Shown piece after piece: positions 35,092-50,965 of a stretch of DNA of 64,000 nt. The first letter of the stretch is position 1. Each line of letters opens with the position of its first letter. Source of the stretch: Kangiella sp. TOML190 (GTDB lineage: Bacteria > Pseudomonadota > Gammaproteobacteria > Enterobacterales > Kangiellaceae). The notes under the pieces are model-generated. The model saw only the letters and a program-made list of their open reading frames with translations. It made no database searches and was not told where the DNA came from. The position numbers and the translations under genes were made by a program. The stretch spans positions 1 through 64,000 of the forward strand of contig NZ_BQYL01000001.1 in NCBI RefSeq assembly GCF_023706045.1, read 5' to 3'.

Positions 35092-38000
35092 ATGGATACT
35101 AATAAAAGAAGGAAAAAAAACCTCAATCCAATGGTATTAGCGTACATTGGACTCATATTCTTATGCTCTAATATTACTTCAGCTAATCAATTTGAGACGA
35201 TTGGAAAACAGATAGATCTTGATGCCACCATTATTTATGACCTAGCCTCAACAGAAGATGGCTATCTTTGGTTGGCGACCAACAATGGCCTTAAGCGCTT
35301 GAATGGCGCTCGGACAAAAGATTACAGCCAACTCCCCGGCCTCGATAAGTCGGTTAATTTTATTTTACAAATCTTAAAAGATAAAAACTATTTGTGGCTA
35401 GCTACCAGCCGAAATAGCATTCTTCGCTTTGATTATCAGCTTGAAGAAACTGTGGAATACCCTTTAATTACCGACGGTATTCGTAACAAAGTGATCATCA
35501 AAAAAATTCTTGATTTTGATCGGAATCAACTGCTTGTTTTTACCGCCAATAACAGGCTTTACTTTCTTGATAAAGAGACCAAAGAATACCGATTAGCTCC
35601 AATCGTTAACAGCTTTTTAAGTAAAAGCAAGAAGCCGCGAATTTATGATATCGAACTAGCGGAAAATAGTGTTTACCTATCGACTTCTGAATATGGCGTT
35701 ATTGAATTAGACCGAAATTTAACTCAAGTACTTAACACATCAATTTCTCCCCTAATTTTTCCACGTTTAAAGTATCATGAAAAAGAGCTATTTTTGGCTG
35801 GTAGGGAAGCTTTATACAAATATACATTAGATAGCAAAGAGATTGTTCATCTAGCAGATTACTCATTAGAAAAACAATATGGTCCGGTCATAAGTGTTCT
35901 AGATATTCATATAAACACAAAAAAGGATGTTTTTCTGAGCACCTACAGGCATGGGGTTATTCGTTATTATAATAATCAGCTAGTTAATTATACTAAAGAT
36001 CCTTTGGATCACCTTTCAGTATCTGCAAACACTTACTACAGAATTAAAAAAGACTTACAGGGTAATATTTGGCTTGCTGGGGATGAATCGGCTTTGGAAA
36101 GAAAGATCAATTCAAGCTCTAGTGTCACTGCCATAAAAACCCAAATAATTCAAAACCGAACCATTACAAATTATAGTCCCATAGCTTTTATAAGTACTAA
36201 TAACAGCCTATGGCTGGGAGGCCAGAAAGGATTATTAATCGCTTCTCACACTGAAGGAGTTACTCCTACATTCAAAAAAGTAGAAGGCATAAGCGGTACC
36301 ATTTTGTCGCTACATCGATTAGATGATCTAATTTATGCAGGAACGGATCATGGAGTTTTTATTACTTCACTCGATGGCTCCTTATTGGGTAGTATCATTT
36401 TTGGTGAAAGAGAAATAGCTCACGTCTACGACCTTTTTAAAGATAACTCTAACGTTATATGGCTAGCTACTCACTCGGGAATCTATCATACCAAAACAAA
36501 AATCATCCCTAATCAACAAAGCTCTGAGTATACGCTAGTTGCGAATACTCATAATGAAAACTATCTCCAATTAATTGATCTTCAAGATTCAATTCTAGCC
36601 ATCGGTCTTCATTCATTTATCGCTAAGATTGATAAAAAAACAGGAGTTATTGAACAAAAATCTAATTATAACCACATAGCTAAACGCTTTAATCAAGCCC
36701 TACTTAACAATGGCTATTTATGGATCGCAAGTGATAACGGTGTATTACAACTGGATCCCAATAGCCTAGCGGTTTTAGAGCAGCATACATTAAGTCACAA
36801 GCATCATCAGATAATAAGACACATTCACTCAGCAACGAAGCACTCTGAGCAAATTTTACTAACGGCTAATGAGGGTGTTTTCTTATTCAACCCTGAAAAT
36901 TATGCTTATCAAGCCATACCGCTGTTAGAACAATATAATAAACACCAGACTTTTACTAAAGCCTTAAATATGGAGGGTAAAAACTACCTGCTCAAATCCG
37001 ATGCAGTAATTTCTTTTAATGACAACTCGGTTTTTACTCACTACTCCAAACCCAAAGTTGCATTTGATAATATTATCGTCTATTCAGAGACTCCCTATAA
37101 CCTGAATCTTAAAAAGAACCAGCCATCCGCTATAGAGTTAGCTTATAACCACAACAACTTAGGCTTAGAAATTAATCCTCTAAATCAACCGTTTTCTCAA
37201 GATATAGCCTATCAATACCGTGTTGCAAGCCATGCAAATAAGTGGAGAAATACCACTGGAGCTTCGCAAGCTTTGGATCTGTTCAATTTATCGCCAGGGC
37301 AATATCAGCTTGAAGTTAGAGCCAGTTATGATCATAAAAACTGGGGAGATATAGCCCCATTTGGATTTACCATAACGCCTCCTTGGTGGCAAAGTTCTCT
37401 AGCTTACTTGGTGTATACATTATTGCTGTTTGGCTTAGTCTACTGGTATATAAGAAGTAAAAAAGAGCACATTGAAATGCTAGAAGAAAATAGTCAACAA
37501 CTAAAGTTTACTGAGCACATCTTTAATAGTACTTCAGATGCAATATGCATTATTAGTGACGAAGGTGAAGTTGTCGCAGTAAACAAAGCTTATCAGAATA
37601 TTACCGGATTTAATGAGCAAGAAGCCATCGGACAGGACTTTTCTTTTGCCATTTCCGAATCTCAGTCGCCTCTGTTCAAACAGCGCTTACTAACAGCTCT
37701 AGAACGCAAAGGTTATTGGCAAGGAGAAACCTTTACTCAAAGCAAATCTGGTCATACCTTTCCTATCGATATGACCGTTGATCAATTAGAACAACCTCGA
37801 CACCATTTTGAAAACGAATACGTTTGCACCTTTAAGGATATCTCTCGGCGTAAAAATTACGAAAATCAACTCAAGCAAATGAGCTATTACGACTCACTAA
37901 CAGGACTTCCTAATCGTGCATTTTTTATCGAGAGATTAAACCTGAGTTTAAAAAATGACCGCTCACAAGAGTTTGCCATTATTTATCTTGATATAGATGA

Positions 38001-39171
38001 CTTCAAAAAAGTGAATGACTTTTATGGGCACCAAATGGGGGATGAGCTACTTAAAAAAGTTGCTTCGCTACTTAACGATGAACTTAACGACGATGAAATA
38101 GCGGCAAGGTTTGGCGGTGATGAATTTTGTTTATTTATACCCGTAATCGATTCTATAAACCTAGTCGATTATAGCGAGCAATTGCTCAACAGATTGCTAC
38201 AGCGATTTAAACACTCTTTCTCCGTGCTTGAACATGAAGTTATCATCTCAGTTTCTCTGGGCATAACATACTACCCAGAACATTCTGATGATATGAGCGA
38301 GCTTATTAAATTTGCTGATGCTGCCATGTATCAAGTCAAAAAACGTGGTGCGGCTGGTTATCAAGTTTTTAATGCTGACTTACTCAATCAGCAACATAAC
38401 CGGGTTGAAATGGAAGTGAGCTTGAAATATGCCATTGATAAAAGACAGATCCATCCTTTCTTACAGCCAATTGTTGATCCACAAACCGGCCAAGTAACCG
38501 CGTATGAAGTTCTTGCTCGATGGATAGATGAAGAAGAACAAATGATATCCCCGGCTCAGTTTATGCCTATCGCCGAGCGTTCTGGTCTAATTGACAGTAT
38601 TTTTCTACAGCAAGTCAAAGCGGTTAAGCCTATGTTTAATCAGCTCAGTAAACAGCCTGGTAGCAGTTTGCAATACTTATCTTTAAACCTATCACCACAA
38701 CAACTACACCGTCCAAAGTTTTTAACGGATTTGAAAAACATTATTTCGCAGTATCAGATTAATCCTGAAAACATTGTTTTAGAAATCACCGAGACAGCTT
38801 TGATTACCAACCCCGTGAGCGCCAACGAGACCATAGTAAAATTAAAAGCCCTTGGTTTTAGGGTCGCTTTAGATGACTTTGGTACAGGTCACTCTTCTCT
38901 GACTCACTTAAAAGAGTTTAATGTGGATGTACTCAAAATTGATCGCAGTTTTGTTAGCAATATCCAAAAATCACCCACCGTTTTTTGTATCGTAGAGTCG
39001 GTAATTAACTTGGCTCATAAGTTACAAATCAAAGTGGTAGCGGAAGGCGTTGAGTCGCAAACTGAATTGGAAACCATGTGCGATCTAAACTGCCACTTTA
39101 TTCAAGGCTTTTACTATGGTCGCCCGGAGCCCCTATCCTATTATCTTGAGCAGAGCACAACCAAGCATTAA
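35092..39171 (+). CDS. Two-component-propeller sensor with PAS, GGDEF and EAL domains
   Basis: 1359 residues. Order: N-terminal signal or TM; a large beta-propeller ligand domain (about 35-640, repeats such as TEDGYLWLATNNGLKRL and GYLWIASDNGVLQL); a Y_Y_Y domain (about 660-760, ITPPWW end); one TM helix (about 768-788); PAS (about 805-930, ICIISDEGEVVAVNKAYQNITG); GGDEF (intact GGDEF at residue 1008); and EAL (EVL at 1139). DDFGTGHSSL and the other catalytic text are present. The RxxD inhibitory site before GGDEF is absent (NDDE). Likely a dual c-di-GMP enzyme triggered by a periplasmic signal. A long gap, 34804-35091, precedes it. Confidence 0.92.
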   Translation: MDTNKRRKKNLNPMVLAYIGLIFLCSNITSANQFETIGKQIDLDATIIYDLASTEDGYLWLATNNGLKRLNGARTKDYSQLPGLDKSVNFILQILKDKNYLWLATSRNSILRFDYQLEETVEYPLITDGIRNKVIIKKILDFDRNQLLVFTANNRLYFLDKETKEYRLAPIVNSFLSKSKKPRIYDIELAENSVYLSTSEYGVIELDRNLTQVLNTSISPLIFPRLKYHEKELFLAGREALYKYTLDSKEIVHLADYSLEKQYGPVISVLDIHINTKKDVFLSTYRHGVIRYYNNQLVNYTKDPLDHLSVSANTYYRIKKDLQGNIWLAGDESALERKINSSSSVTAIKTQIIQNRTITNYSPIAFISTNNSLWLGGQKGLLIASHTEGVTPTFKKVEGISGTILSLHRLDDLIYAGTDHGVFITSLDGSLLGSIIFGEREIAHVYDLFKDNSNVIWLATHSGIYHTKTKIIPNQQSSEYTLVANTHNENYLQLIDLQDSILAIGLHSFIAKIDKKTGVIEQKSNYNHIAKRFNQALLNNGYLWIASDNGVLQLDPNSLAVLEQHTLSHKHHQIIRHIHSATKHSEQILLTANEGVFLFNPENYAYQAIPLLEQYNKHQTFTKALNMEGKNYLLKSDAVISFNDNSVFTHYSKPKVAFDNIIVYSETPYNLNLKKNQPSAIELAYNHNNLGLEINPLNQPFSQDIAYQYRVASHANKWRNTTGASQALDLFNLSPGQYQLEVRASYDHKNWGDIAPFGFTITPPWWQSSLAYLVYTLLLFGLVYWYIRSKKEHIEMLEENSQQLKFTEHIFNSTSDAICIISDEGEVVAVNKAYQNITGFNEQEAIGQDFSFAISESQSPLFKQRLLTALERKGYWQGETFTQSKSGHTFPIDMTVDQLEQPRHHFENEYVCTFKDISRRKNYENQLKQMSYYDSLTGLPNRAFFIERLNLSLKNDRSQEFAIIYLDIDDFKKVNDFYGHQMGDELLKKVASLLNDELNDDEIAARFGGDEFCLFIPVIDSINLVDYSEQLLNRLLQRFKHSFSVLEHEVIISVSLGITYYPEHSDDMSELIKFADAAMYQVKKRGAAGYQVFNADLLNQQHNRVEMEVSLKYAIDKRQIHPFLQPIVDPQTGQVTAYEVLARWIDEEEQMISPAQFMPIAERSGLIDSIFLQQVKAVKPMFNQLSKQPGSSLQYLSLNLSPQQLHRPKFLTDLKNIISQYQINPENIVLEITETALITNPVSANETIVKLKALGFRVALDDFGTGHSSLTHLKEFNVDVLKIDRSFVSNIQKSPTVFCIVESVINLAHKLQIKVVAEGVESQTELETMCDLNCHFIQGFYYGRPEPLSYYLEQSTTKH

Positions 39172-49599: not shown

Positions 49600-50037
49600 A
49601 TGCTGCTTACTTTCGTCATTTCGCTCTTTTTAATTTTCCTTTGTGTAGCGGTTCATTACGAAGCCTTACACCGCTTCGACGACATCAGCGATAAATTAGC
49701 GCTAAAAGGACGTATTAAAGTTGGAGCAGGTTCCGTGTTGGCAATCGCCGCCCATACCGTTGAAGTTTGGTTATTTGGTATTGCTCATTATTTCTTAGTC
49801 AACAATACCAGCGATAACTTTATTATGCACAGTAGTGGCAAAGCCGCTCACGGTTTTATGGAATCCATTTACTTCTCCTTTATCTCCTACACCAGCCTAG
49901 GCTATGGCGATCTAGTCCCCGAAGGTCCAATCCGTTTCATGGTAGGTACCGAGTGTTTATTAGGACTGGTTCTGATTGCTTGGACCGCCTCTTTTCTGTA
50001 CCTAAAAATGGAACGTTATTGGAAAGTAAGTGATTAA
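49600..50037 (+). CDS. Small two-TM potassium-channel-like protein
   Basis: 145 residues. A hydrophobic helix lies at 1-18, another around 45-65, then the pore and selectivity filter YTSLGYGDLVPEG (TxGYGD) and the last helix (about 110-135). No cytoplasmic RCK or ligand domain follows. It would tetramerise into a K+ channel. It converges on the riboswitch-controlled gene with a 4-bp overlap of stop ends. Confidence 0.85.
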   Translation: MLLTFVISLFLIFLCVAVHYEALHRFDDISDKLALKGRIKVGAGSVLAIAAHTVEVWLFGIAHYFLVNNTSDNFIMHSSGKAAHGFMESIYFSFISYTSLGYGDLVPEGPIRFMVGTECLLGLVLIAWTASFLYLKMERYWKVSD

Positions 50038-50264
50038 TCCGGAATCTTGCTGATCCGCTCAATAAAAAGGTGGTTGCCAAAACCGAATTTGGCGTCTTGA
50101 GCAAAAGAGGTTAGCAAGTCTTCCGCTTCGCCTAACTTTAGATAAAATACTTCTGAATTTTCTTCCGAGTCGGACTTAACAATAGAAAATTGATAACTGC
50201 GCTTTAAAGCTTCCAATCGAGAATTGAAACTTTTTTCTGCCTGATTTTTGATCACGATAAACAT
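50034..50264 (-). CDS. Uncharacterised 76-residue protein behind a c-di-GMP riboswitch
   Basis: 76 residues from ATG at 50264, selected because GGAGG stands 8 nt upstream; the ATG at 50279 overlaps that ribosome-binding site. It contains an N-terminal strand (MFIVIKNQ), a basic middle (LEALKRSYQFSIVK), then SEVFYLKLGEAEDLLTSFAQDAKFGFGNHLFIERI. No signal peptide or TM helix is visible, so it is cytoplasmic. The family is not recognised. The GEMM-I riboswitch on the leader makes it a c-di-GMP effector gene. Confidence 0.8.
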   Translation of the reverse strand: MFIVIKNQAEKSFNSRLEALKRSYQFSIVKSDSEENSEVFYLKLGEAEDLLTSFAQDAKFGFGNHLFIERISKIPD

Positions 50265-50315
50265 CTTAAATACCTCCATTTTGAATATTTCATGGTTACA
50301 AGCTAGATGATTACC

Positions 50316-50418
50316 GAAGTTAGAACTGTATCAGGTTCGGCGGTCCCGCTACCTTAGCAAATACTTGCCTTAGGCCGGTGACTTTGCGTCAATGGCTTTC
50401 GCCACTTTTGCCGTTTCG
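50316..50418 (-). promoter_or_regulatory. c-di-GMP-I (GEMM-I) riboswitch
   Basis: Read on the minus strand, the core matches the GEMM-I consensus in order. ACGGCAAAAG comes first, then a GAAA tetraloop hairpin TGGC-GAAA-GCCA. GACGCAAAG, CCGGCCTAAGG and GGTAGCGGG follow. The spacing agrees with the Vibrio Vc2 aptamer. It ends about 50 bp before the start codon of the 76-residue protein. An expression platform (terminator or sequestered ribosome site) is not resolved by eye. No search was run. Confidence 0.92.
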
Positions 50419-50801
50419 TCTAAACTTGTTAAGCTCATACTAGCAAATTTGAACTAATTCACAATATTGGCGTATTCTTGTTTGTATTATTTTACAAGCA
50501 ACAGCCAGCAATCGATGGTAAACTATTGATATTTATAAACTTTATTGTACTGCTGTTATTTTGGGCTTAATATTTAACGCTACTGAGCAGCTTCAGAAAC
50601 TGTTTGCAAACACTCAAAATATGACGCAACTCACACAAAAAAAGACATTTTTTGTCACTCCAAGTGCAGCTTTAGAGATGTCAATCCGCAAGAATTTAAG
50701 GTGCGAACCAGAATTTAGGTTCGACTTGCTATTAGGCAGCTTTTTTTGTGTAAACACTAATAATCGCCAAACTTTAGCTATGAAATTCAATTTTTAAGCA
50801 T

Positions 50802-50965
50802 AAAAAAGGCCCGCTTAGGGGAGCGGGCCAACTCACAATCTCCGTATTAGCTACCCCTCTGACAAGATAGCTTAGGAGAACAATGAACACTTTCATTACA
50901 ACTGGCTAACACCTTGTTTTCAAAGGGCAAATGTAAAAGATTTGTAAAATGGATAGATAGTGTCA
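50802..50965 (-). ncRNA. Candidate small RNA with its own terminator
   Basis: The minus strand ends at a strong intrinsic terminator (GGCCCGCT-N6-AGCGGGCC then six T, 50802-50829) that no neighbouring gene accounts for. sodB already has its own terminator at 51024-51050. A -35-like TTGACA lies near 50965. The inner part can form AGCTATC/GGTAGCT. No family is recognised, and the 5' end is a guess. The plus-strand ORF at 50561 is considered spurious. Confidence 0.4.

Follow-up and report, generated by a model that had tools for sequence, protein, structure and literature searches.

The locus considered here raises a question in three parts: is the leader found on the minus strand of a Kangiella contig a riboswitch for c-di-GMP, what is the small protein encoded downstream of it, and in which direction might the one control the other? 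The DNA analysed (hereafter, the window) is a stretch of 64,000 nucleotides from Kangiella sp. TOML190, in which a preliminary description had placed a c-di-GMP-I riboswitch ahead of the gene for an orphan 76-residue protein.

The aptamer and the gene downstream

When the whole window was searched with Rfam, the model of the class-I c-di-GMP aptamer (GEMM-I, RF01051) matched minus-strand positions 50336..50422 over its full length (model positions 1–87 of 87), scoring 81.9 bits (gathering score 35; E 1.4e-14). The Rfam comparison proposed in the preliminary description thus comes out well above threshold, the minus-strand riboswitch is confirmed, and the conserved segments listed there are present in the RF01051 alignment. 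On sequence grounds the element adds a further member to an established riboswitch class, with an unremarkable aptamer that is predicted to bind its ligand. No second RF01051 match is found in the 2.45-Mb genome; riboswitch families other than RF01051 were searched for across the window.

Related leaders are found in five other Kangiella genomes (see below), and of the six aptamers that of the window has the highest RF01051 score. All six carry G at model position 11, as do members of the class that prefer c-di-GMP, and all six share an invariant CCGAA segment. Position 11 is presumably the equivalent of G20 in the Vc2 riboswitch, and the CCGAA segment presumably holds the equivalent of C92. 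In passages from one study, G20 is treated as a selectivity factor for ligand preference and not as a hard filter (PMC9262584). The P1 helix, in which the two ends of the aptamer come together, has between four and seven of seven standard pairs in each leader, with four of seven in the window.

The gene itself (50034..50264, minus strand) runs from an ATG at 50264 to a stop codon at 50036-50034 and encodes 76 amino acids. Its start codon (50264-50262) is preceded by a ribosome-binding site, GGAGG, at 50277-50273, the two together occupying 50262..50277 on the minus strand, and lies 71 nt from the aptamer. An alternative in-frame ATG at 50279, which would give 81 amino acids, sits on the GGAGG itself; the homologues begin at the later ATG, and it is they that fix the start.

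Gene and riboswitch occur together in one genus

A protein search of 198 genomes returned matches in six, all of them among the 20 Kangiella genomes in the set (the window genome included), so the description of the protein as an orphan does not hold: it has homologues in five other Kangiella genomes. The riboswitch has precisely the same distribution. RF01051 scores above its cut-off in six of the 20 Kangiella genomes, under stricter and laxer filters alike and once per genome, and these are the six that encode the protein; the other 14 have neither part. These counts use above-cut-off matches only, matches below the cut-off being obtained at lax limits in four of 14 control genomes and seven of the 14 non-carriers (in these non-carriers all below 21 bits). 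The aptamer precedes the gene in all five relatives that carry it, as the preliminary description would have it, and the distance from aptamer to start codon, computed from coordinates, is 71–104 nt across the six carriers. Since the pairing recurs in every Kangiella genome that has either part, the regulatory link between riboswitch and gene, judged from this co-occurrence, is solid.

One carrier, G016, contains in addition a sub-cut-off c-di-GMP-I match (G016:C6:96625-96733; 26.2 bits against a cut-off of 35, E 0.0048), which is possibly a degenerate second riboswitch.

Beyond the genus, no convincing homologue of the protein emerged when profiles were run against 247 genomes from the order, 369 from the class and 40 from the family. 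When genome contigs were scanned, a single locus came back, from a Kangiella, and no relatives of the protein were found among plasmids, phages and viral contigs. Outside Kangiella the profiles gave three weak hits (G209, E 0.015; G166, E 0.049; G306, E 0.0066), each partial and lying within a larger open frame, which were judged to be chance matches.

Within Kangiella the carriers cluster together. An rpoB tree groups all five of the carriers present in it with support of 100/100 (17 of the 20 genomes gave an rpoB match), and a tree of sodB plus the neighbouring channel gene, built from 15 genomes, groups all six with support of 100/99; both trees are midpoint-rooted. A single event within Kangiella would explain the distribution. 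With the trees rooted in this way, it is the absence of the pair from other genera that leads us to infer gain rather than loss.

The window gene is a half-length member of its family

The homologues in the five other Kangiella genomes are 143–145 residues long. Aligned with them, the window protein proves to be truncated: it stops at residue 76, comprises the N-terminal half only and lacks the C-terminal half. Hence the 76-residue open reading frame of the preliminary description is present, but it is a shortened copy and not the usual form of the family. In the window, the stop codon of the gene overlaps that of a convergent ion-channel gene (49600-50037, plus strand) by 4 nt, at 50034-50037, an arrangement that suggests a deletion joining the two ends.

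Is the window gene then a decaying remnant, left behind an intact aptamer after its C-terminal half was deleted against the channel gene and encoding a protein that is dispensable in this strain? The loss of almost half the usual length and the 4-nt overlap both point that way, and the truncation itself may make decay likelier. Set against this, however, the half that has been kept is the better conserved one (21 of 72 columns are invariant in the N-terminal half of the five full-length copies, compared with 8 of 73 in the C-terminal half), and the window copy retains every one of those 21 invariant residues. The 76-residue product is, moreover, predicted to form one complete domain (model pLDDT 80.7), the ribosome-binding site is intact, and so is the aptamer, the best-scoring of the six. 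We therefore regard decay as a possible but rather doubtful explanation. Substitution rates do little to decide the matter: when dN/dS was estimated over the N-terminal half by the Nei–Gojobori method, 10 of the 15 pairs were saturated, and as the five that involve the window copy are all among them, the method does not show selection on the window gene. Among the unsaturated pairs, G011/G013 has a dN/dS of 0 (dN 0, dS 0.36), whilst the other four give 0.135, 0.167, 0.203 and 0.413 at dS values of 0.96 to 3.3.

A predicted ferredoxin-like protein without a recognised family

The preliminary description was right that the protein belongs to no recognised family. Searches of the family members against Pfam and NCBIfam yielded nothing significant, with a best E-value of 0.07, and PADLOC gave no match for the protein. 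Six PHROGs families appear up to E 1, the best at E 0.0029 and in one of the six members only, and there is a weak sequence match (E 0.084) to the integron-cassette protein 3fuy.

Structure prediction points to a ferredoxin-like fold, with one domain in the window copy and two in a relative. The model of the 144-amino-acid form, made by AlphaFold from two input sequences, has a pLDDT of 65.3 and a pTM of 0.59 and was used for the order of secondary-structure elements only. Although both halves are predicted to be ferredoxin-like, hhalign detects no homology between the N-terminal and C-terminal halves. ACT structures are among the top Foldseek matches, none of which reaches E ≤ 0.001, and the nearest known systems are ACT or ferredoxin-like domains such as the ACT domain 2ko1, SerB2 (5is2) and domain V of EF-G. 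No ACT sequence model is among the families (two from Pfam, two from NCBIfam) that the six members bring up at E-values as high as 10, a negative limited by the HMMER filters, which discard most matches above about E 0.1. The ferredoxin-like fold, which in ACT proteins frequently occurs in tandem, is too common for a family to be assigned from it. The product is a small protein with no visible signal sequence, and may on one reading be cytosolic.

Homology to SPOR domains was also considered, on account of a SPOR-like open reading frame at the equivalent locus of another Kangiella genome (G008, described below), and was rejected. Pfam SPOR (PF05036) does not match the family members, and hhalign comparisons of the N-terminal half, the C-terminal half and the whole protein with 30 SPOR domains of the genus and that of G008 gave E-values of 0.1 to 0.24.

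The locus and its neighbours

In all six carriers the riboswitch unit lies between sodB, which in the window occupies 51661-51074 on the minus strand and is identified by a Sod_Fe match, and the convergent ion-channel gene. The sodB–channel pair is retained in nine non-carriers. In eight of these the matched ends of sodB and the channel gene are 59–245 nt apart, with neither riboswitch nor homologue between them; in the ninth, G008, a SPOR-domain open reading frame takes up the position. The remaining five Kangiella genomes give a weak channel match only.

The G008 gene (L051 1117-1485, plus strand) encodes a 123-amino-acid protein that scores 22.1 bits against a SPOR cut-off of 21. It sits where the riboswitch unit does in the carriers, in the same orientation and likewise flanked by sodB and the channel gene, and like that unit lies downstream of a small-RNA-like element. 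Unlike the family described here, it has what reads as a signal-peptide-like start, G008 has no above-cut-off riboswitch, and no homology between the two is detectable (hhalign probability 0.07–0.1 per cent, E 0.53–0.69).

The small-RNA-like element, at 50798..50888 on the minus strand of the window, ends in an intrinsic terminator (50829-50808) found by a terminator scan. It is conserved in five genomes, the other copies being at L046 2893-2986, L049 2812-2902, L050 2794-2877 and L051 992-1092, and is laid out as GTTCATTGTT[C/A]TCC, a stretch like CTATCTTGTCAGAGGGGTAG and finally an end that resembles a terminator. With a model derived from the five copies, only those five of the 20 Kangiella genomes are found at E ≤ 0.001, and four of them are carriers. 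The element scores below every Rfam cut-off, with weak likeness to Betaproteobacteria_toxic_sRNA (21.8 bits, cut-off 50) and anti-hemB. It is a neighbour lying between sodB and the riboswitch unit and no part of the switch. Because its terminator separates sodB from what follows, the riboswitch unit probably has transcription of its own.

A candidate promoter for the unit can be read from the sequence at 50437..50464 on the minus strand, comprising TTGTGA (50464-50459), a 16-nt spacer, TGC and TAGTAT (50442-50437), and transcription is predicted to start at about 50430, just before the 5′ strand of the aptamer. A consensus scan scored the same layout in one of the six leaders (G017) and found no promoter in the leaders of the window or G016; in G004 it placed one promoter elsewhere, and in G011 and G013 it picked other hexamer pairs at about the same place. 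A similar layout is visible by eye in G016 and G004.

Elsewhere in the window, a large GGDEF/EAL protein that the preliminary description had placed at 35092 is borne out by Pfam: the gene at 35092-39171 (plus strand) encodes 1359 amino acids, with regulator-propeller, PAS, GGDEF and EAL matches above Pfam cut-offs. The genome has 16 GGDEF matches, this one included, so that its nearness to the riboswitch (11 kb) means little.

How the switch might work

All six leaders carry the sequence CAAG[U/G]UU[A/G]GACGAAA at the 5′ end of the aptamer. Its 5′ switching strand, ACAAGUUUAGA (50419..50429, minus strand; eight of 11 positions invariant in the six leaders), has two possible partners. The inner part of the shared stretch forms P1 with a strand just past CCGAA, this P1 3′ strand (the CGAACCUGA region, 50331..50339, minus strand) being the proximal partner that closes the aptamer, with four of seven pairs in the window. 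The 5′ strand is also able, in each of the six leaders, to pair with a distal strand, which in the window is UCUAGCUUGU (50298..50307, minus strand; ten pairs with one bulge, -8.6 kcal/mol) and ends 33 nt before the start codon; in the other five leaders the corresponding distance is 40–48 nt. The two pairings are mutually exclusive. The distal one comprises 11 pairs in G011 and G013, ten in G017, ten with one mismatch in G004 and eight in G016. Without ligand it is the stronger in every leader: its energy lies between -8.5 and -13.1 kcal/mol, whereas P1 reaches -2.7 in the window and between -3.5 and -5.5 in the other leaders. These duplex energies leave out the closing cost of the longer loop of the distal pairing.

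Pairing of this quality is uncommon in shuffled linkers: the number of shuffles per 1000 that pair as well is 17 for the window leader (G000), 14 for G004, 1 each for G011 and G013, 2 for G017 and 24 for G016. As G011 and G013 are near-identical, the six leaders amount to about five independent cases. The window leader has a weak P1, and its distal helix depends on a bulge.

The reading we favour, and consider somewhat better than an even bet, is of a class-I c-di-GMP riboswitch, probably with its own promoter, that serves one small gene and acts as a translational OFF switch by strand exchange. At low c-di-GMP the 5′ end of the mRNA (CAAGUUUAGA) would pair with the distal strand (UCUAAACUUG; UCUAGCUUG in the window), leaving the start region more open. 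With c-di-GMP bound, the 5′ strand would go to P1 and the distal strand would be released; the start region would then be more masked and translation reduced. The protein would be supposed to act at low c-di-GMP, for example by binding a partner protein. In none of the six leaders did a simple scan detect an intrinsic terminator between the aptamer and the start codon, which favours translational control, and Vc2 of Vibrio cholerae is characterised in two papers as switching translation OFF, with a key role for P1 (PMC7371385, PMC9262584).

The OFF direction is a leaning and not a result, the support from folding being mixed. Forcing P1 lowers the accessibility of the start region in five of the six leaders, with 9 of 100 shuffles as low for G000, 7 for G004, 1 each for G011 and G013 and 6 for G016; in G017 there is no masking of the start (57 of 100 shuffles as low). 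Accessibility of the Shine–Dalgarno sequence falls on forcing P1 in G000, G004 and G016 (1, 11 and 11 of 100 shuffles as low, respectively) and does not fall in G011, G013 and G017 (93, 90 and 71 of 100). An earlier and cruder test, in which only the distal strand was blocked, gave mixed ranks (G000 2/37, G004 6/70, G011 33/45, G013 32/45, G017 31/62, G016 25/52).

The same riboswitch could instead be an ON switch, with c-di-GMP binding opening translation or protecting the mRNA and the protein being made at high c-di-GMP. The slight rise in Shine–Dalgarno accessibility seen in G011 and G013 when P1 is forced would fit this, and GEMM-I members of both directions exist according to passages in PMC9262584. 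The fall in start-region accessibility in five of six leaders runs the other way, however, and we consider an ON switch unlikely. Control might also be exerted through Rho-dependent termination or mRNA decay rather than masking of the start codon, a route that the want of an intrinsic terminator and the mixed evidence for masking would both allow. Vc2 is reported, in one study, to affect RNA stability. This route appears less likely still.

A fuller picture can be put forward tentatively, with slightly less than even confidence. In this picture the protein would be an undescribed c-di-GMP output, as the preliminary description suggested it may be, cytosolic and with tandem ferredoxin-like domains, that arose or was acquired once in Kangiella together with its riboswitch as a unit; the window strain would have pared it down to one working domain, and the extreme 5′ end of the mRNA would alternate in its pairing, now in P1, now with the distal strand. 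With one riboswitch, one target gene and a clean pattern of presence and absence within one genus, the case is a tractable one, in which a natural half-length variant singles out the N-terminal domain, and it would show a lineage-specific gene coming under second-messenger control.

Comparison with other GEMM-I riboswitches

The riboswitch is thus ordinary and well supported; its target is uncharacterised and lineage-specific. The aptamer shares with the RF01051 class the full-length match, the G at position 11, the conserved CCGAA and the position in a 5′ UTR, and does not differ from it. What does differ is the downstream family, which is not among the GEMM-I targets inspected at 19 sites, spread over 14 genomes from the other genera of this bacterial family.

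A close comparison is with Vc2, upstream of tfoY in V. cholerae (PMC7371385, PMC9262584), also a gamma-proteobacterial GEMM-I riboswitch, with which the Kangiella element would share P1 as the proposed switching helix and the repression of translation. By contrast, the Kangiella target has no family match and is not recognisable as TfoY, and here the alternative strand pairs with the extreme 5′ end of the predicted transcript, with direction inferred.

The literature retrieved for Kangiella with c-di-GMP, riboswitch or GGDEF (open-licence papers, mostly as abstracts) contained nothing pointing to the locus. Kangiella is not named in the main text of a comparative study of the GEMM regulon, which, in the sections consulted, is described as consisting mostly of genes of unknown function, 114 in number (PMC3766115).

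In other genera of the family the aptamer is found at 19 sites in 14 of 20 genomes examined, and a profile search detected no homologue of the Kangiella protein in those genomes. The one or two longest downstream open reading frames were inspected at one site of another family and at all 19 of these sites, two of which are on short contig ends; judged by eye from their sequences, the products resemble HD-GYP-type, HDOD-type, large secreted repeat and small secreted proteins and a cytochrome. On one contig (G031:C148; L098 and L099), two GEMM-I riboswitches lie about 1.7 kb apart, ahead of open reading frames of 449 and 438 amino acids that encode similar-looking proteins.
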